Origin: Methanohalophilus levihalophilus
GTDB lineage: Archaea > Halobacteriota > Methanosarcinia > Methanosarcinales > Methanosarcinaceae
Direction of reading: 5' to 3'
DNA: 64,000 nucleotides
Assembly (NCBI RefSeq): GCF_017874375.1
Contig: NZ_JAGGLK010000001.1
Coordinates: 124,001 to 188,000, forward strand
A program made the translations under genes and the position numbers. The notes beneath the pieces are model-generated. The model was not told the DNA's origin. It saw nothing but the letters and a program-made list of their open reading frames with translations, and ran no database searches. Below are positions 767-42,676 of the stretch, piece by piece. Each line of letters starts with the position of its first letter. Positions within the stretch are counted from its first letter, which is position 1.

Positions 767-1471
767 ATGATTCCTAAAAAAGGATGGTTATCTTTCTTGG
801 AACAAAGGAACAGTATCACTTCAAAACTGAAAATCTCAAAAAGACGTGAAACCTACAGGCTTATTTTCCAGCTAATCGGGCTTTCAATCTTCGTTTATTT
901 CGGAAGGGAGTCAACGATATATGTCATTCTCCTGACCCTTCCCCTGGCAGTACTTATAGGTCCTGCTTATTGTGGATGGATGTGCCCGAGGGGGATGTTC
1001 CAGAACATTGCAGGCATTGTTGGAAGGAAGTTTCTTGGCAAGCGATATAACCGGTTGGTTTCCCGAAAGGTGCACGATAAGTTGAGATTCTTCAGGTATG
1101 TTCTCCTGCTTTTTGTATTGGCAACCGTGATTCTTTATGAGTTTGAAGTACTTGGTGTATCTGTAGAAGCGGCTATTGCTGACGGGCTTGTTGCAATAAT
1201 GGTACTTTCGATTCTGCTTTCCTTTTTTGTTGACAGGGCAGCGTGCAGATATTTTTGCAAGGATGGGGCATTTGCATCTCTGGTAAATCTGGTTAAAATC
1301 AGGAAAATCAGGCGTGATAAATCCCTTTGCAATTCCTGCGGGATATGTGACAAGGTCTGCCCAATGTGGATTGAAGTTTCAACTAAGGGTGCTGTGGAGG
1401 ATCATTCCTGCATAAGCTGCTTCAAGTGCATTTGTGCTTGTCCTCAGGATGCTCTTAGCATAGAAGAGTAA
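767..1471 (+). CDS. NapH/YccM-like membrane 4Fe-4S protein
   Basis: An integral-membrane iron-sulfur protein of about 234 residues. It has several hydrophobic helices, the cytoplasmic Cys motifs CGWMCPRG and CRYFCKDG typical of NapH/CcoG-like proteins, and then two ferredoxin motifs near the C-terminus (CNSCGICDKVCP and CISCFKCICACP) for two [4Fe-4S] clusters. Such proteins carry electrons between membrane and cytoplasmic partners. The open frame extends upstream to 389, but that part lies antisense over the PEBP gene. I take ATG 767, with ATG 728 as the alternative. A TATA-like ttatatac at 732-740 would put the transcript start just ahead of 767, making it nearly leaderless. The electron partner is unknown. 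Confidence 0.8.
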   Translation: MIPKKGWLSFLEQRNSITSKLKISKRRETYRLIFQLIGLSIFVYFGRESTIYVILLTLPLAVLIGPAYCGWMCPRGMFQNIAGIVGRKFLGKRYNRLVSRKVHDKLRFFRYVLLLFVLATVILYEFEVLGVSVEAAIADGLVAIMVLSILLSFFVDRAACRYFCKDGAFASLVNLVKIRKIRRDKSLCNSCGICDKVCPMWIEVSTKGAVEDHSCISCFKCICACPQDALSIEE

Positions 1472-1472
1472 G

Positions 1473-2798
1473 TTACAGGAAATATAGTATCACCGGCAAC
1501 AGGATTACTCCCATTGCATGTGCTCTTCTGACTTTCATAAATGGTGGTAACATGCCGATGGTAGTGGCAATCACAAAAAGAAGGAGGCCGTAAAAGCCTG
1601 TTAATACTGTTACTGTAACGCAAAGAAACGCAAGAACGCCTTTGCAAACCTTTGAATATTCAATTTTTTCCAGTACTCTGTGGATGTTATTTCCGATAGC
1701 TACCGTTGAGATGTAGGAAAAAAGTGACGCTGTCAGGAGTGCAATAATACACATAAGTATGAATGTGCTGTTAATTCCGGTGCCGGAGAGCAAACTATCT
1801 ATTGCAACCATTGCTCCGCTTCTTGTTTTTTCAATTATTGCAAGTGCGAATAAACCGAAAATGGCATTGCTTGTATTTACACCTGAAACAGAGACAATAA
1901 ACTCCTTCGCTTTTTCAAGCAGATCCTCGTCATTTTGCTCTTTTGAAAAGTTCTCCGGAATCATAAGTCTGGTCATAACAGTTGCAGTGGATGATGATAC
2001 TCCGGGTAACCATGCTACAAGAGAACCTGCAAGGCTTCCTGTGAAAATTCCTCTGGCGATGTTTTTGGATGGAAGCTTCATCTGCGAGATGTTTTTGGTG
2101 GGAACATGTGCATCTGACATCATACTGATGATCAATTGTGAAGCTCCGAATAAGCCGCTCAAGAGCGGAAGCAATACGGTGGGCTCTCCGATATCGAGTA
2201 TGGGTTTTGCAAGATACTCCGTTCTGAATGCAATATAACCAAGGCTCCCGCTTATCAGGAAAATTAAAAGCGCATAAAAAACGAAACGAAGCCGGGCCAG
2301 TGACCCCTGTCCGGGTACCGTTTCTCCCTTTTCCGTAATAATCAGGACAGTCGAGATCAGAATAAGTATTAACGCCATGTTTTCCTGTACCAACGAATAA
2401 TTATTTGCAAAAAAGAAGATGAGGGGAAGTGCAAGAATCACAGAAAATACAACGGAGCCTGCACTCCCAAGGGCTGAAAGCCGTACGGCTTCCGCACCAT
2501 AACCATCCAGAAGCAGGCGATGTCCCGGGAGTACAGCAAGTGCGACATCATCATTTGGTGCTCCAAGAAATATTGCAGGTATTATATCGTGGAACGTGTG
2601 TGAAATTGAGTTGGAAAGAATTGCCACGGCTACATATATCGGAGAGATTCCTAACTCGATGAAAATTGGTGATAGGGAAAGTAGGAGAAGTGCGAAGTTA
2701 TTAGTGTGTATTCCCGGTATGAGGCCGGAGATCACTCCAAGTAGGTATCCGATAACAATGGAGGCAACAAGATATGTGATTGTTATATTTTCGTACAT
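1473..2798 (-). CDS. TctA/DUF112-type tripartite tricarboxylate transporter permease
   Basis: A 441-residue polytopic membrane protein, almost wholly hydrophobic, with 10 or more predicted helices. Near the N-terminus it carries GVISGLIPGIHTNN and later HTFHDIIPAIFLGAPND, the family's signature glycine/proline turns. In bacteria TctA works with TctB and a periplasmic TctC. Neither is beside this gene, so the archaeal protein either acts alone or has distant partners. Substrate is unknown. Its stop lies one base past the end of the convergent iron-sulfur gene. The start at 2798 is the first Met of the hydrophobic domain. Confidence 0.8.
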   Translation of the reverse strand: MYENITITYLVASIVIGYLLGVISGLIPGIHTNNFALLLLSLSPIFIELGISPIYVAVAILSNSISHTFHDIIPAIFLGAPNDDVALAVLPGHRLLLDGYGAEAVRLSALGSAGSVVFSVILALPLIFFFANNYSLVQENMALILILISTVLIITEKGETVPGQGSLARLRFVFYALLIFLISGSLGYIAFRTEYLAKPILDIGEPTVLLPLLSGLFGASQLIISMMSDAHVPTKNISQMKLPSKNIARGIFTGSLAGSLVAWLPGVSSSTATVMTRLMIPENFSKEQNDEDLLEKAKEFIVSVSGVNTSNAIFGLFALAIIEKTRSGAMVAIDSLLSGTGINSTFILMCIIALLTASLFSYISTVAIGNNIHRVLEKIEYSKVCKGVLAFLCVTVTVLTGFYGLLLFVIATTIGMLPPFMKVRRAHAMGVILLPVILYFL

Positions 2799-2913
2799 TA
2801 TTAACAGAGAACTTTATTTTTTAGTTTTCAACAATTCATTTCAATAATAATTTATTTTATTTAAACTGAACCAAGGTTACTGCTTTATACCAGAACCCCA
2901 ATGGAATGATTTA

Positions 2914-3831
2914 ATGTCCCACCCTGCCAAAAAATGCATGAAATGCAATGCTGATGCCATTATTTTCCAGAAATATTCAGGAATGCACCTGTGTAAGAAG
3001 CATTTCATCGAGGATGTGGAGCGCAAGGTCAAGCTCACTATACGCAAGCATTTCAATATTGGGAAAAATGAGACACTGGCTGTTGCGCTAAGTGGCGGGA
3101 AAGACAGTTGTGTGGTTCTTTACATCATGCACAAGATTTTCAGCGAACGCAGGGATCTTAACATCGTGGCGATAAGTGTTGATGAAGGCATCAAAGGATA
3201 CAGGGAACAGTCCCTTGAATATGCAAAGGAACTTGCTTCAAGTCTTGGGATAGAGCACATTATCCGTTCCTTTGATGATGAATATGACACTACCCTCGAC
3301 GATCTCACAGCAAAGAATCGTGTTCTGGGAGCATGCAGCTATTGTGGTGTCCTGAGGAAATCAATTCTAAACAAGGTTGCGCTGGAAATTGGTGCGACAA
3401 GACTTATCACCGGTCACAATCTGGATGATGAAGCCCAAACAATTCTTATGAATCATCTTGCAGGGGATGTGGATCGCCTGGTGAGGCTTGATCCGCCACG
3501 TGAAATTGAAGGCATGGTTCTCAGGGCTAAACCCTTGCGCAAAATCCCTGAAAAAGAAGTTGCACTTTATGCTCTTGTGAATGACATACCGGTTGATTTT
3601 GAAATTTGCCCATATGCTCATGAAGCGCTTCGGGGGGAAGTTCGCGACATGCTCAATGGGTTTGAAACCAAACACCCCGGTACAAAATATTCTCTTCTCA
3701 GGGGTTTTGATAAAATGGTTAAGGTACTGGCTGCGGATTTTCCGCAGGCGAACATCAGCCAGTGCAGGGTCTGCGGACAGGCGTGTAATGCCGAAGTATG
3801 TCAGGCCTGTCGTTTACTTGGAAAAGGATGA
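2914..3831 (+). CDS. tRNA 2-thiolation enzyme, TtuA/Ncs6 (TIGR00269) family
   Basis: A 305-residue adenylating sulfurtransferase that activates a tRNA uridine for 2-thiolation. An N-terminal zinc site is formed by C8, C11, C27 and H30. The PP-loop ATP-binding motif SGGKDS is at residues 60-65, the central GACSYCGVLRK carries catalytic or cluster cysteines, and a C-terminal Cys-rich knuckle contains CRVCGQAC. Length and domain order match TtuA (U54) and Ncs6/NcsA (U34); the sequence alone does not decide which. There is no clear Shine-Dalgarno site. A TATA box (tttatac, about 2884-2890) lies 25-30 bases upstream, so the message may be leaderless. It converges on the membrane protein gene with one base between them. 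Confidence 0.88.
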   Translation: MSHPAKKCMKCNADAIIFQKYSGMHLCKKHFIEDVERKVKLTIRKHFNIGKNETLAVALSGGKDSCVVLYIMHKIFSERRDLNIVAISVDEGIKGYREQSLEYAKELASSLGIEHIIRSFDDEYDTTLDDLTAKNRVLGACSYCGVLRKSILNKVALEIGATRLITGHNLDDEAQTILMNHLAGDVDRLVRLDPPREIEGMVLRAKPLRKIPEKEVALYALVNDIPVDFEICPYAHEALRGEVRDMLNGFETKHPGTKYSLLRGFDKMVKVLAADFPQANISQCRVCGQACNAEVCQACRLLGKG

Positions 3832-33860: not shown

Positions 33861-33944
33861 GCCGAGGTAGTCTAGTGGTAGGGCGCAAGCCTGGAAAGCT
33901 TGTGGGGCATAGACCCCTCGGGAGTTCGAATCTCCCCCTCGGCG
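33861..33944 (+). tRNA. tRNA-Ser (anticodon GGA)
   Basis: An 84-base class II tRNA. Acceptor gccgagg (33861-33867) pairs with cctcggc (33937-33943), with discriminator G. The D arm contains agtggtagg, the anticodon loop is ctggaaa, a long variable arm carries a gggg/cccc stem, and the T arm is gggag-ttcgaat-ctccc. CCA is not encoded. T-rich sequence follows. A TATA-like ctttattcg lies at 33841. It marks the left border of the accessory island. Confidence 0.95.
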
Positions 33945-34090
33945 CTCTGATTTCTTTTCGTTTTTGTACCTTTTTGCACTTTGAGGCCTTGGTTGAAAGC
34001 AATTCGAGTCTTACTTACAAAAAAGTATTATACTAAATTGAAGTATTAATTGTAACTAATTATTATTTCTGATTTTGTAGGTCGCTTGTC

Positions 34091-36046
34091 ATGATTAAAG
34101 ATGAATCCCAGCCAAATTTGTTTCATCCTCGTTTTAGTAGTCGTTTTTTTGAAAACTATGCTGGAAAAATGATAAGCGATCCTAAAGTAGCAATAATAGA
34201 ATTAGTAGCAAATTCATGGGATTCTGGAGCAACAGAAGTTAGAATTAAGTGGCCGATTTATCCAGACAATTATTTTGAGATATCTGATAACGGCTGTGGG
34301 ATGACCAAGGACGAATTTTTAAAGTATTGGAGTGAGTTTAATTATAATCGTGTAGGTGTCCAAGGATCAACTGTAAAAGTTGTAGGGATTAACAAAGACA
34401 TTGAACGACGAGTTTTTGGAAAAAATGGTAAAGGACGTCATAGTCTTTTCTGTTTTTCAAAGGATTATCAGGTTGAAACTTGGAAAGATGGTTGCCAATC
34501 TCTTTTCAATGTATCAATGTCTTCTGGTGATGCTCCTTATACCATTGAATTAGTAAATCGCAATAAACATGATGGAAATGGGACCAAAATACACAGTACT
34601 TTCAGCAAAAAATTAGAGCTTTCAAAGTGGTTAGAAATTGGTGAAGTTAAGGACTTGCTTGGAACAAAGTTTATTGTAGATCCCGTTCATTTTAAAATAT
34701 ATTTAAATGATGAACTAATTGAATATTCAGACATATTAGAACATGCAAAAGAATACGTGTATGAATTACCTGATTTTGGAGCTATTAACATATATCTAAT
34801 TGATAGCAAAGTTGTTGGTAGAACCACTAAGCAGCATGGAGTTGTATGGTGGGTTAATGGTCGATTGGTGGGTGATCATTCTTGGAAAGATTTTAGTGGT
34901 AGCTTCTTAGATGGAAGGACAAGTGAAGCAAGAAGATATACAATAATTGTAAAAGCTGATATTTTAGTAGATGATGTTAAAGATGATTGGACTGGATTTA
35001 ATGAAACTGAAAGGGTAAAACAAGTTAAAGAAAAAATTAACACTTTTATTCTTGAAACAGTTTCAGATTTAATGAAAGATGTTCGGCGTGAGGAAAAAAT
35101 AAGCATTTTGCAGACTCAAAGGAAAACGCTTAAACAATTGAGTACACCTTCGAGAAATTCGATTGGACATTTTATCACTCAGGTTCAACAAAAGTGTCCT
35201 ACCATAAAAACAAGTCACTTGGAAAATGTTGTTGAAGTTTTGGCAAACATGGAAAGAAGCAAATCTGTGTATAAATTGTTACGACAGTTGTCTCAATTAA
35301 CTCCCAATGATATGGACTCCCTATCTCATATTTTGGATGAATGGGATATCATGGATGCAAAAATGGTTTTAGATGAACTTAAGAAAAGGTTAGATTTAAT
35401 TGAACAGCTTGAAGACATAGTAGAAGATCCAAAAACAGATGAATTGCATGAACTTCAGCCTTTATTTGAATATGGTCTTTGGATATTTGGACCAGAGTAT
35501 GAAAGTATAGAGTTTTCATCAAATAAATCATTGTCAACAGTCTTAAGAACACATTTTGATAAGCAGGGTGTGAAGGATCTTAGAAATCCACGAAAAAGAC
35601 CTGATTTTGTTGTTCTTCCTGATTGTTCTTTTGGAGTATATAGTAGCGATAAATATGGTGAAGACGGAGAAAACGTTGAAGTCTGTGGCACTTCTAAAGT
35701 TTTAATAATAGAGCTTAAACGGGGTGGTTCAACAATTTCATCTGATCATCTTTATCAAGCTAACAATTATGCGTCTGAGATAAAAACATCAGGGAAAGTG
35801 GAACCTGATACTGCAATAGTATGCTACGTATTAGGAACAAAAGTAGATCCAAATTTAGATTGCCTTTCAATGGGTTCGATAACTGTTTGCCCACGGTCCT
35901 TTAATTTAGTTTTACGTCAAGCACATTCGAGAACCTTTAAACTAATGGAAAAAATAAAGAAAACCAAGGATATCGAAGACTATTATGACGAAGAAGTTGA
36001 AGAAGTCCTTAAGCAAAAAGGCTTTGAAGACTTTGAATATACTTGA
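34091..36046 (+). CDS. GHKL (MORC-like) ATPase fused to PD-(D/E)XK nuclease; probable defence protein
   Basis: A 651-residue two-part protein. Residues 20-330 form a GHKL ATPase with its S5-like transducer. The N box is ELVANSWDSGA (E37, N41, D44), then ISDNGCGM (66-71) and FGKNGKGRHS (109-118). HGVVWWVNGRLVGDHSW and the acidic VDDVKDDWTGF lie in the transducer. A coiled-coil region (about 300-450) follows. The C-terminal domain (about 455-610) reads LQPLFEYGLWIFGPEYES, then RPDFV (D505), VLIIELKRGG (E541, K543) and LYQANNY (Q556). This is the PD-(D/E)XK pattern of DUF4263/Shedu-like nucleases. Codons are more A/T-rich than in neighbouring genes. Prokaryotic MORC-like ATPases joined to restriction-type nucleases are known as defence proteins. 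Function here is inferred. Confidence 0.75.
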   Translation: MIKDESQPNLFHPRFSSRFFENYAGKMISDPKVAIIELVANSWDSGATEVRIKWPIYPDNYFEISDNGCGMTKDEFLKYWSEFNYNRVGVQGSTVKVVGINKDIERRVFGKNGKGRHSLFCFSKDYQVETWKDGCQSLFNVSMSSGDAPYTIELVNRNKHDGNGTKIHSTFSKKLELSKWLEIGEVKDLLGTKFIVDPVHFKIYLNDELIEYSDILEHAKEYVYELPDFGAINIYLIDSKVVGRTTKQHGVVWWVNGRLVGDHSWKDFSGSFLDGRTSEARRYTIIVKADILVDDVKDDWTGFNETERVKQVKEKINTFILETVSDLMKDVRREEKISILQTQRKTLKQLSTPSRNSIGHFITQVQQKCPTIKTSHLENVVEVLANMERSKSVYKLLRQLSQLTPNDMDSLSHILDEWDIMDAKMVLDELKKRLDLIEQLEDIVEDPKTDELHELQPLFEYGLWIFGPEYESIEFSSNKSLSTVLRTHFDKQGVKDLRNPRKRPDFVVLPDCSFGVYSSDKYGEDGENVEVCGTSKVLIIELKRGGSTISSDHLYQANNYASEIKTSGKVEPDTAIVCYVLGTKVDPNLDCLSMGSITVCPRSFNLVLRQAHSRTFKLMEKIKKTKDIEDYYDEEVEEVLKQKGFEDFEYT

Positions 36047-36085: not shown

Positions 36086-36216
36086 TCATCCTTTCAAAGC
36101 TTCTACGACAGTCTCACCGAATTTCTTTGCGCCCATGGGATCACGCCCGGTTACAATCCTGCCTTCCCGGATTAAATCAACATCCTCATACTTGGCATCG
36201 TTTTTCTCCAGGAAAA
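36086..36216 (-). pseudogene. C-terminal relic of a DJ-1/PfpI-family gene
   Basis: Read on the minus strand this gives about 43 codons ending EALKG and a TGA. They align without gaps to the last part of the intact DJ-1 gene at 42149-42676: KYEDVDLIREGRIVTGRDP here against KYEDTDVLREGKIVTGRDP there. Nothing matching the upstream two thirds (including the catalytic Cys) is present before 36216. It is a truncated second copy lying just past the end of the ATPase-nuclease gene. Confidence 0.8.
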
Positions 36217-38647: not shown

Positions 38648-39580
38648 ATGAAAGCCTTTGTCTACAACAAATACGGATCAGCCGATGTTCTCCAGCTCAA
38701 AGAAGTGGATAAACCGATTCCCAGAGACAATGAAGTCCTCATCAAAATCCATGCGACAACCGTGACCATCGGGGATACGATAATGCGAAGCTTTAAGCTT
38801 CCCACCCCTCGCTGGCAATGGATTCCGGCACGACTTTACCTGGGTATAAGAGGTCCAAGACGGCATGTTCTCGGAATGGAGCTTGCCGGAGAGATTGAAG
38901 CCTTGGGACAGGATGTGACACGCTTTAGTGTCGGGGATCAGGTTTTTGCATCCACATTCAGGGAGAATTTTGGTGGGCATGCTGAGTACAAATGCATGCC
39001 TGAAGACGGGGTTATGGCACTAAAACCGGAGAATCTCACTTATGAGGAAGCCGCTGCCGTTCCCGGTGGAGGGATGACGGCACTCCAACTTCTCAGGAAA
39101 GGCAATATCGAGAGTGGCCAGAAAGTCTTGATCAATGGTGCTTCAGGGGCGGTGGGTACCAATGCGGTACAGCTTGCAAAGCACTTTGGCGCGGAAGTAA
39201 CCGGTGTGTGCAGCACTGCAAATCTGAAACTGGTAGAATTGATGGGAGCCGATAAAGTCATTGATTACACAAGAGAGGATTTTACTCAAAACGGGGAGAT
39301 GTATGACATTGTTCTTGATGCGGTGGGCAAACTTCCTTCTTCAAAAGCCAAGCAGGTTCTTAAGCAAGGCGGAGCCTACATCAATGTTCTTGCTTCAGCA
39401 GATGATGGTGATACCATTGAAAACTTAACTTTCCTCAAAGAGCTAATTGAGGCAGGGAGGTTGAAACCTGTCATTGATCGAATCTATCAGTTTGAGCAGA
39501 TTCCCGAAGCTCACAGGTATGTAGAGCAGGGGCACAAGAAGGGGAATGTGGCTATAACCGTTGCAAGTGACAATACATAA
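38648..39580 (+). CDS. Zinc-independent medium-chain reductase (quinone-oxidoreductase-like), paralogue 1
   Basis: A 310-residue MDR-superfamily enzyme using NAD(P)H. N-terminal GroES-like domain with EVLIKIHATTVTIGDT and LGMELAGEIEALGQDV. The Rossmann domain carries VLINGASGAVGTNAVQLAK, the AxxGxxG-type cofactor site. No zinc-binding Cys cluster, so it fits the quinone/enone reductase branch rather than zinc alcohol dehydrogenases. First of three tandem paralogues; the flavodoxin gene lies between copies 1 and 2. Substrate unknown. Confidence 0.88.
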   Translation: MKAFVYNKYGSADVLQLKEVDKPIPRDNEVLIKIHATTVTIGDTIMRSFKLPTPRWQWIPARLYLGIRGPRRHVLGMELAGEIEALGQDVTRFSVGDQVFASTFRENFGGHAEYKCMPEDGVMALKPENLTYEEAAAVPGGGMTALQLLRKGNIESGQKVLINGASGAVGTNAVQLAKHFGAEVTGVCSTANLKLVELMGADKVIDYTREDFTQNGEMYDIVLDAVGKLPSSKAKQVLKQGGAYINVLASADDGDTIENLTFLKELIEAGRLKPVIDRIYQFEQIPEAHRYVEQGHKKGNVAITVASDNT

Positions 39581-39631
39581 GCCGGGAAAACAATTACACA
39601 TTGCATCCATATTACCAAAGGAGAATGAGCA

Positions 39632-40090
39632 ATGAACTCTCTCATAATCGTCAAATCCATACATCAGGGAAATACCCTGAAAATTGCGGAGAGGATGGCA
39701 CAGGTATTGGGTGCGGATCTAGTCGGGCCTGAAGATGTAGATTTGCAGAAAATCAATGACTACGACCTAATTGGCTTTGGCTCAGGTATCTATTCCAACA
39801 AGCATCATGATTCTCTTTTCGATTTGGTGGATAAGTTACCGAATCTAAATGGGAAGAAAGTGTTTGTATTCTCCACCTCCGCAATGATAAGGAAATCCGA
39901 TCATAGTAAATTAGAAAGCAGTTTGGAAGAGAAGGGTGCAGTGATCGTAGACGAATTCTTTTGTAAAGGCCTCAACAAGAACAGCTTCATGAAATACATC
40001 GGTGGGATGAATAAAGGCAGACCCAATGAAGATGATTTCAAAAGAGCTGATGAATTTGTAGGTAAAATGAAAGGCAATAATTTCGATTGA
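39632..40090 (+). CDS. Flavodoxin-family protein
   Basis: A 152-residue FMN-binding electron carrier or reductase. The phosphate loop is SIHQGNTLKIAERM, IGFGSGIYSNKHHDSL follows, and FSTSAM marks the third FMN loop. It is a single flavodoxin domain related to the protoporphyrinogen-oxidase-like group. Its stop nearly abuts the next reductase gene, so the two are probably cotranscribed. Confidence 0.85.
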   Translation: MNSLIIVKSIHQGNTLKIAERMAQVLGADLVGPEDVDLQKINDYDLIGFGSGIYSNKHHDSLFDLVDKLPNLNGKKVFVFSTSAMIRKSDHSKLESSLEEKGAVIVDEFFCKGLNKNSFMKYIGGMNKGRPNEDDFKRADEFVGKMKGNNFD

Positions 40091-40104
40091 TAGGATGTCA
40101 TGTC

Positions 40105-41085
40105 ATGAAAGCTGTTGTAAATGAAAGATACGGATCACCTGATGTACTTGAACTAAAAGAGGTTCCTAAACCAATTCCAAAAGACAATGAGATTCTCATC
40201 AAAATACATGCGACCACAGTGAACAGGACCGATTGTGGATTTCGAAATGCAGATCCTTTTTTTGTAAGATTTTTCCTTGGCATTACGAAACCAAAACAGA
40301 AAATACTCGGGAGTGAATTTGCCGGGGCAATTGAATCCATTGGCAGGGATGTAACGTTGTTTCAGGTGGGTGACAAAGTTTTTGGACACACCGGGGACAA
40401 AATGGGTGCACATGCAGAGTATATCTGCCTGGCCGAAGACGATCCTATTGCGATAAAACCGGAAAACCTGGATTATGAAGAAGCCGCTTCGATATGTGAT
40501 GGGGCTTCCCTTGCATTAACCTATATCAGCAGATCAAATCTCCAAAAAGGAAAACGCATTTTGATCTATGGTGCTTCCGGATCCATCGGTACAGCAGCGG
40601 TTCAGCTGGCAAAGTACTATGGGGCAGAAGTTACCGCAGTCTGCAGTACCACAAATCTGGAAATGGTAAAATCCCTCGATGCTGACAGGGTCATTGATTA
40701 CACTCAAGAGGATTTTACAAAAGATGACCAAACACATGACATCGTTTTTGATGCGGTTGGTAAAAGCTCATTTTCACGCTGTAAAAGCCTGCTGAAAAAG
40801 GGTGGAATCTATTTTTCAACAGAACTGGGATTTCTGGCCCAGAACCCCCTCTTACACATATGGACATCGAAAATTGGAAGTAAAAAAGTGATGTTTCCGC
40901 TCCCCAAATATACAAGGGAGGATGTGGCTTTTTTCAGGGAACTTATTGAAGAGGGTAAGCTCAAACCGGTAATTGACAGGAAGTATCCGCTGGAGCAAAT
41001 TGTCGATGCTTACAGATATGTTGAAAAAGGGCATAAGAAGGGAAATGTAGTCATAACTGTAGGAAAGAGTAACAATACCGAATAA
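40105..41085 (+). CDS. Medium-chain reductase, paralogue 2
   Basis: A 326-residue MDR enzyme clearly related to its neighbours: KAVVNERYGSPDVLELKEV, EILIKIHATTVNRTDC, and cofactor loop LIYGASGSIGTAAVQLAK. It has an insert near residue 250 (WTSKIGSKKVMFP) shared with copy 3 but missing in copy 1. ATG 40105 is chosen; TTG 40087 overlaps the flavodoxin stop. Substrate unknown. Confidence 0.88.
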   Translation: MKAVVNERYGSPDVLELKEVPKPIPKDNEILIKIHATTVNRTDCGFRNADPFFVRFFLGITKPKQKILGSEFAGAIESIGRDVTLFQVGDKVFGHTGDKMGAHAEYICLAEDDPIAIKPENLDYEEAASICDGASLALTYISRSNLQKGKRILIYGASGSIGTAAVQLAKYYGAEVTAVCSTTNLEMVKSLDADRVIDYTQEDFTKDDQTHDIVFDAVGKSSFSRCKSLLKKGGIYFSTELGFLAQNPLLHIWTSKIGSKKVMFPLPKYTREDVAFFRELIEEGKLKPVIDRKYPLEQIVDAYRYVEKGHKKGNVVITVGKSNNTE

Positions 41086-41100
41086 TTAGGAAGGCTACTG

Positions 41101-42102
41101 ATGAAAGCAATTGTATGCACAAGATACGGCCCACCTGAAGTTCTTCAGCTTAGAGAGGTTCCAAAACCCATCCCAAAAGATAATGAAGTTCTCATAAAAA
41201 TCCATGCCACATCAGTAACAACCGGTGACTCCAATGCCCGGGATTTTGTTTATATTCCGCCCGGTTTAGGACTTCTGGCGCGCTTGATGCTTGGCATCAC
41301 AAAACCAAAGAAAAGCATGCTAGGATCTGTGTTTGCCGGAGAAATTGAAGCAGTTGGAAAAGACGTTAAATTGTTTAATGTGGGTGACCGGATCTTTGGA
41401 GGTGATGGTGATGGTATGGGTGCTTATGCAGAGTACAAATGTATGTCTGAAGACGGATTGCTTGCAGCAAAACCGGCTAATCTGACGTATGAGGAAGCTG
41501 CAGTAATTCCTTTCGGCGCTCTGACTTCCTTGTATTTCCTCAGAGACAGGGCAAATGTTCGAAATGGACAAAAAGTCCTTGTAAATGGTGCTTCAGGGGG
41601 GGTCGGTACTTCTGCTGTACAAATTGCCAAAGCCTTTGGTGCAGAAGTAACAGGTGTATGCAGCACTCGAAATCTGGAATTGGTGACGTCTCTGGGTGTC
41701 GATAAGGTAATTGATTATACGAAAGAGGATTTCACTAAAAACGGCGAGTCTTATGATATCATTTTGGACACGGCAGTGGGAACAACATCGTTTTCAAAAT
41801 GTAAAAAATCGCTGAGTCAGGATGGTTTCTATCTTGCAGTTGCAGGTGGTTTAAAAGATCTATTTCAAATGCTCTGGACTTCGAGAATTGGCAGCAAGAA
41901 AGTGATCTTTGGCGGAGGAGGGGCATGCGAGAAAAAAGAGAATTTGTTTTTCCTCAAAGAGCTTCTTGAATCTGGAAAATTAAAACCGGTTTTAGACAGA
42001 AGCTATCCGCTGGAACAAATTGCAGAAGCTTTTAACTATCTTGAAAAAGGCCAAAAGAAAGGAAACGTGGCTATAACTGTAAAACACAATGATGAAAAAT
42101 AA
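41101..42102 (+). CDS. Medium-chain reductase, paralogue 3
   Basis: A 333-residue MDR enzyme. KAIVCTRYGPPEVLQLREV opens it and VLVNGASGGVGTSAVQIAK is the cofactor loop. The insert WTSRIGSKKVIFGGGG is shared with copy 2, making these two the closer pair. Sixteen bases separate it from copy 2. The three copies probably arose by tandem duplication and may have split substrate ranges. Confidence 0.88.
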   Translation: MKAIVCTRYGPPEVLQLREVPKPIPKDNEVLIKIHATSVTTGDSNARDFVYIPPGLGLLARLMLGITKPKKSMLGSVFAGEIEAVGKDVKLFNVGDRIFGGDGDGMGAYAEYKCMSEDGLLAAKPANLTYEEAAVIPFGALTSLYFLRDRANVRNGQKVLVNGASGGVGTSAVQIAKAFGAEVTGVCSTRNLELVTSLGVDKVIDYTKEDFTKNGESYDIILDTAVGTTSFSKCKKSLSQDGFYLAVAGGLKDLFQMLWTSRIGSKKVIFGGGGACEKKENLFFLKELLESGKLKPVLDRSYPLEQIAEAFNYLEKGQKKGNVAITVKHNDEK

Positions 42103-42148: not shown

Positions 42149-42676
42149 TTATCCCTTCAAAGCTTCCACGACAGTCTCGCCAAATTTCTTTGCGGCCTTT
42201 GGATCACGTCCGGTCACTATCTTTCCTTCCCGTAGTACATCAGTATCTTCGTATTTGGCACCGTTTTTCTTAAGGGCCTTAATGGCAGTTTTTTCCGCAA
42301 AAACGGTACTCTTTTTGCCTTTCAGAAGTCCTGCTTTTGCAAGTACCACCGGGGACAGGCAAATGGCTGCAACAACCTTTCCGCTTTTCTCTGCATCTTT
42401 TGCAAGACTCCTGAGTTTCACGTTATCCCACAGGAACTTAACGGAACCTCCGCCTCCCACTATCACAACTGAATCATAATCATCTGCATTTGCATCTGCA
42501 ATTGCAATGTCAGGTTTTACTTTCTCACCCTTCGCTCCCCGTGCCGTTTCGGTTGAATTGCTGGCAACTGTTACATCATAACCATTCTTCTCGAAAACTT
42601 TCCGGGGATCCAGATATTCCTCATCCCTGAAGTTTTCCTGTGCTATAACCATCAGAATTTTCTTACTGTCGGCCAT
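42149..42676 (-). CDS. DJ-1/PfpI-family protein
   Basis: A 175-residue protein of the DJ-1 superfamily, whose members act as glyoxalases, deglycases or proteases. The nucleophile-elbow motif is AAICLSPVVLAKAGLLKG, with Cys in the usual place. VVIVGGGGSVKFLWDN supplies the oxyanion loop and GRIVTGRDP-like sequence closes the domain. It converges on the reductase cluster. A truncated copy of its 3' end lies at 36086-36216. Confidence 0.9.
   Translation of the reverse strand: MADSKKILMVIAQENFRDEEYLDPRKVFEKNGYDVTVASNSTETARGAKGEKVKPDIAIADANADDYDSVVIVGGGGSVKFLWDNVKLRSLAKDAEKSGKVVAAICLSPVVLAKAGLLKGKKSTVFAEKTAIKALKKNGAKYEDTDVLREGKIVTGRDPKAAKKFGETVVEALKG

Follow-up and report, generated by a model that had tools for sequence, protein, structure and literature searches.

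A single-gene GHKL ATPase-nuclease of the paraMORC3/GHKL-Shedu kind in Methanohalophilus levihalophilus, a probable anti-virus or anti-plasmid protein

The paraMORC3 proteins were defined in 2008 by Iyer, Abhiman, and Aravind as a GHKL domain combined with an S5 domain and a C-terminal RE-fold domain carrying the signature E-D-ExK (PMC2292703). They were described as wide but sporadic in their occurrence among bacteria and archaea, with some known as standalone genes, and no experimental function was given (PMC2292703). In 2025 a GHKL-DUF4263 protein of Vibrio cholerae, VcSduA, which is encoded on VSP-II of the WASA lineage, was reported to restrict phages (PMC12137116). Its anti-phage activity needs both active sites, as the ATPase and nuclease substitutions E27A and K557A abolish it, a dimer has been modelled, and the protein is filed as Shedu type I-D (PMC12137116). 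The SduA protein of E. coli is a homotetramer (PMC12904381), in contrast to the dimers formed by GHKL proteins. The GHKL-Shedu architecture itself is already known, and the archaeal gene described here adds an instance of it, not a new system.

The gene lies in a stretch of 64,000 nucleotides of the M. levihalophilus genome, referred to here as the window. The open reading frame and the domains of its product are arranged as follows.

34091-36046, + strand: open reading frame of 651 amino acids, with an ATG start and no internal stop
34145..34600, + strand: GHKL (Bergerat) ATPase domain, about residues 19-170, with the N box E37/N41/D44, DNGCGM at 66-71, and GKNGKG at 110-115
34637..35005, + strand: S5/transducer-like domain, about residues 183-305, with invariant W253, V255, W265, D299, and W300, assigned from conservation and the model
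35009..35440, + strand: helical region, about residues 307-450, with a long helix at 307-342 followed by more helices in both models
35441..35950, + strand: PD-(D/E)XK nuclease of the Shedu (SduA_C/DUF4263) kind, about residues 451-620, with E471, D505, E541-x-K543, Q556, and Y560

A single chain carries, in this order, a GHKL ATPase, an S5/transducer domain, a helical linker, and a PD-(D/E)XK nuclease. The original prediction, made on the DNA letters and their translations, had named the N box, the DNGCGM and GKNGKG motifs, D505, and E541-x-K543, and every one of them is present at those residues. The transducer-like region and the coiled coil that it proposed can be recognized in the predicted structure as the transducer domain and the helical region.

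The architecture agrees with the definition of paraMORC3, including the E-D-ExK signature, when the protein is compared with the text of the definition rather than with a list of sequences. When compared with VcSduA by its published description, the protein is likewise the product of a single gene, with an N-terminal GHKL domain (VcSduA motifs I-IV) and a C-terminal PD-(D/E)XK domain of the Shedu kind, and the spacing of the catalytic glutamate and lysine is similar (E27 to K557 in VcSduA and E37 to K543 here). Unlike VcSduA, the protein is archaeal, has no Pfam SduA_C match, and has an activity that is predicted. Set against Shedu type I-D, it has a GHKL ATPase with intact motifs and a nuclease homologous to SduA, but it does not reach the PF14082 cut-off.

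Profile searches of the two halves, as the original prediction had proposed, gave an uneven result. A Pfam search of the 651-residue protein identified HATPase_c_3 (E=1.4e-13), whereas SduA_C (PF14082/DUF4263) was not matched at E<=1 and nothing convincing was found in the C-terminal half. A PADLOC search returned weak matches to REase_II models (residues 28-140) and to SduA (4.8e-4, residues 421-470).

The full-length AlphaFold model, which is based on 19 sequences, has a pLDDT of 74; its N-terminal half is confident, and residues 499-534 form a low-confidence segment. Using Foldseek, the N-terminal half was matched to TRAP1/Hsp90, MORC3, MORC4, and MutL with E values of 4e-14 to 1e-11, and also to MORC2; the alignments to the MORC ATPase and to Hsp90 cover approximately 370-400 columns. 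The strict form of the motif that is specific to MORC in S5, GhXhhpXXRhl, is not followed, as residues 250-260 read GVVWWVNGRLV and the polar position is occupied by the invariant Val255. For this reason the description "paraMORC3-like" is to be preferred to the "MORC-like" of the original prediction.

The C-terminal half was modelled separately as residues 340-651 (37 sequences, pLDDT 77). With this model, Foldseek gave no match at E<=0.001, and a search of PDB sequences with the C-terminal profile gave nothing meaningful. Structural comparison with VIA-align placed E. coli SduA first (8ps4, Z 9.6, 159 residues, 3.7 Å), together with DNA-bound SduA (8ps5, Z 9.3) and the Shedu protein of B. 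cereus (8ti9, Z 9.0; 8ti8, Z 8.8); BspD6I, FokI (Z 8.6), and EndoMS also belong to the top group. By the tool's own warning, Z values of 7-8 are common, so that the SduA values of 9-10 are modestly higher and the structural match taken alone is moderate evidence. The SduA proteins of E. coli and B. cereus (8ps4, 8ti8) share the PD-(D/E)XK nuclease domain, in which the conserved elements follow one another in the same order; their N-terminal region is not known to be a GHKL ATPase.

The relation to Shedu also emerges, independently of the structures, from profile comparison. When the C-terminal half of the family was aligned by hhalign with SduA_C proteins fetched by PF14082, the match was 96.4% (E 1.4e-9), and all controls, 20 column-shuffled and one reversed, stayed below 1% (at most 0.7%). 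In the aligned register the LWIFG, PDF, and IELK segments correspond, and D505 and E541-x-K543 coincide with their counterparts. A homologue of the same architecture at locus L116 does reach the PF14082 cut-off in a genome search (24.4 bits in hmmscan), which makes the GHKL-nuclease branch of the 651-residue protein look diverged rather than unrelated. The C-terminal domain is a PD-(D/E)XK nuclease homologous to SduA, with D...ExK. Sequence profile, structure model, and homologue conservation thus all bear out the combination of GHKL and Shedu-like PD-(D/E)XK domains that had been predicted, and the finding that would have spoken against it, a C-terminal domain resembling no PD-(D/E)XK fold, did not arise, with SduA, FokI, and EndoMS among the matches.

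The conservation of the two active sites was assessed in a family alignment of 29 rows, containing homologues from Bacteria and Archaea that are 35-54% identical. All rows agree in the GHKL residues E37, N41, D44, D66, G68, G70, G113, and G115 and in the nuclease residue D505. E541 and K543 are absent from a single row, which is truncated, and in some relatives on viral contigs E541 is replaced by Asp, the D/E-x-K alternative. Because the catalytic letters are all kept while the family diverges to 35% identity, the motifs lie far beyond chance. Two intact active sites are conserved in this diverged family and are fused in one chain.

Full-length relatives, some 30 in number and roughly 32-54% identical, come from Bacteroidota, Planctomycetota, Chloroflexota, Acidobacteriota, Pseudomonadota, and Archaea. 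Within the same class the gene is rare, being carried by three of 238 genomes; the other two carriers belong to another genus of the same family (54% identity) and to another family of the order (52%). This scarcity, and the presence of recombinases as the sole recurrent partner beyond close relatives, are in keeping with the sporadic, mobile, and partly standalone occurrence of paraMORC3. A quick tree pairs the window protein with the copy from the other genus of its family (support 99), sets a Methanobrevibacter copy apart, and intermixes the bacterial copies, with several deep forks unresolved; the mixing of bacterial and archaeal copies and the separate Methanobrevibacter copy fit lateral transfer. 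A search of a phage collection for relatives of the protein found none.

The surroundings of the homologues were surveyed with PADLOC and Pfam on 105 neighbour proteins, a purely descriptive survey that does not speak to enrichment. A Shedu nuclease gene adjoins one homologue (L068) and an AbiEii gene another (L070); MmeI restriction and Cas9 genes lie near a third (L069), and a Gabija-like ATPase/UvrD pair with a restriction endonuclease near a fourth (L067). The archaeal homologue from the other family of the order (L085) has phage portal, DUF2213, and AbiEi-like genes nearby and is located beside or within a provirus. The family protein occurs in identical copies in seven Algoriphagus genomes (L008-L014), in each case on a segment that extends over at least 15 kb and is 96-99.6% identical among them; this segment, which carries integrase and SIR2-like genes (L014), is a recently moved element. 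Some homologues on Rhizobiaceae plasmids stand beside the repair genes RusA and LigD, and one on an Agrobacterium Ti plasmid (L065, 11968-13902) adjoins the nopaline dehydrogenase gene.

The neighbours common to distant loci are mainly site-specific recombinases. A two-gene system was considered and rejected, since apart from recombinases and a few genes in close relatives the neighbour proteins include no shared partner. The expectation that homologues would lie in defence surroundings is borne out in part: defence genes are found near several of them, but some copies, such as that at L084, stand beside housekeeping genes. A consistent association with housekeeping genes, which had been named as evidence against a defence role, was not seen, recombinases and defence and prophage genes often being near.

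At the locus itself, the gene is flanked by two features that lie outside the system.

33861..33945, + strand: tRNA-Ser(GGA), identified by ARAGORN, the conserved left edge of the stretch that varies
36089..36196, - strand: 36-codon 3' gene remnant, 42 bp beyond the stop of the ATPase-nuclease gene

The open reading frame starts 145 nt past the end of the tRNA. Synteny with six relatives continues upstream through the tRNA gene and ends there, and the GC content drops from approximately 50% to 33% at the gene. The A/T-richness that had been noted extends across the whole gene (33-35% GC, against 41-51% upstream). The gene had also been placed within a conserved operon region, which is correct for the upstream side, but the downstream side is rearranged. 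Insertion at the tRNA with duplication of the attachment site was considered and rejected, as the 3' end of the tRNA-Ser occurs only once within the window. The remnant, which we take to be of the DJ-1/PfpI type, shows 83% amino acid identity to an intact copy 6 kb further on (42149-42676, - strand) and 50% to a gene situated about 1.3 kb past the same tRNA-Ser in a relative of another genus. The remnant and the intact copy suggest that this stretch has undergone a duplication or an insertion, and together with the relative's post-tRNA gene they place the ATPase-nuclease gene in a rearranged variable stretch beside a conserved tRNA. The genes that adjoin it encode a TrmB regulator and a Methyltransf_11/25-type enzyme. 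Further downstream, at 38648-42102 on the + strand, there are presumably three tandem paralogous genes of the quinone-oxidoreductase type, the first and second of which are separated by a flavodoxin-like gene.

Taken together, we consider it likely that the protein is a single-gene nuclease directed against viruses or plasmids, of the paraMORC3 or GHKL-Shedu (Shedu type I-D-like) kind, and that its gene was acquired horizontally. By analogy, the defence reading is supported by the published phage experiments on VcSduA, with which it agrees. The protein would act as a dimer, whose GHKL and transducer domains would close upon ATP binding and enclose either DNA or a viral protein that is bound to DNA. 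The closing movement would pass through the helical region and would free or pair the C-terminal PD-(D/E)XK domains, and the paired nuclease domains would then cut the invading DNA. Dimer closure as the gate, and likewise the target and the trigger of the nuclease, are what we infer for such a protein.

An alternative, in which the protein would belong to the type II restriction endonucleases of the BbrUII/HgiDII kind and would cut a fixed sequence while a methyltransferase protects the host, appears improbable. BbrUII/HgiDII (NF050001) is the top NCBIfam match (E=1.8e-25), and MutL is also matched. Enzymes of this family combine, within one chain, a GHKL ATPase and, after it, a Shedu-like nuclease, and a true BbrUII member, that at L116, has the entire domain order in common with the 651-residue protein. 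In addition, the distant relatives L072 and L082 are full-length NF050001 matches that adjoin DNA cytosine methyltransferase genes. However, the score of 89.6 bits is far below the cut-off of 550, and the best-matching stretch (residues 35-225) covers the ATPase part only, as in the other family members scanned. Linked restriction-modification was rejected because no DNA methyltransferase gene stands beside the gene. A PF00145 cytosine methyltransferase is absent from the genome, whose two N6/N4 enzymes are on another contig. BLAST of six DNA methyltransferases against the neighbour proteins of the family gave no relatives, although two of these proteins had hits to the MmeI methyltransferase domain. 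The match mainly to the ATPase half, the lack of a linked methyltransferase, and the lack of a C5 methyltransferase in the genome weaken this alternative.

A host enzyme of DNA repair or recombination that acts outside defence, as a mismatch or branch nuclease resembling MutL or EndoMS/NucS, is very unlikely. The ATPase is near MutL, the nuclease fold is near EndoMS/NucS, and the RusA and LigD genes beside the plasmid-borne homologues would suit such a role, but the rarity of the gene in its class, the identical copies on the integrase-bearing Algoriphagus segments, and the phage protection conferred by VcSduA, which has the same architecture (PMC12137116), speak against it. A decaying or selfish passenger without present function in the host could be read from the A/T-rich gene, the rearranged stretch with its truncated neighbour gene, and the broken homologues, split into frames, at L027, L029, L031, and L063, but it is hardly credible for a full-length open reading frame that keeps every conserved residue.

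The anti-virus or anti-plasmid nuclease reading extends the GHKL-Shedu (paraMORC3) defence proteins to the M. levihalophilus genome. As the SduA_C model of Pfam misses the diverged branch, annotation that relies on this model would overlook it. It is conceivable, though rather unlikely, that this Pfam-invisible branch of Archaea and Bacteria senses a cue other than that of VcSduA, such as the topology of DNA or DNA crossings caught by the ATPase dimer as it closes, and limits its cutting to foreign DNA that has been trapped. As a one-gene case, the protein is suited to the general question of how ATP-driven dimer closure controls a nuclease in GHKL proteins.

Two further observations concern the wider relations of the two halves. 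The L116 protein (1195-3183, - strand) is a full-length BbrUII/HgiDII enzyme with a score of 797 bits, above the cut-off, and also matches Pfam SduA_C. The architecture of GHKL and nuclease appears to be common to this type II restriction family and to Shedu, and a BbrUII/HgiDII-type enzyme with an SduA_C-like nuclease links the two. When the ATPase half was compared with models of viral proteins, the best matches in fold were phage RIIA proteins, in large number, and how these relate to the GHKL proteins of defence may deserve attention.
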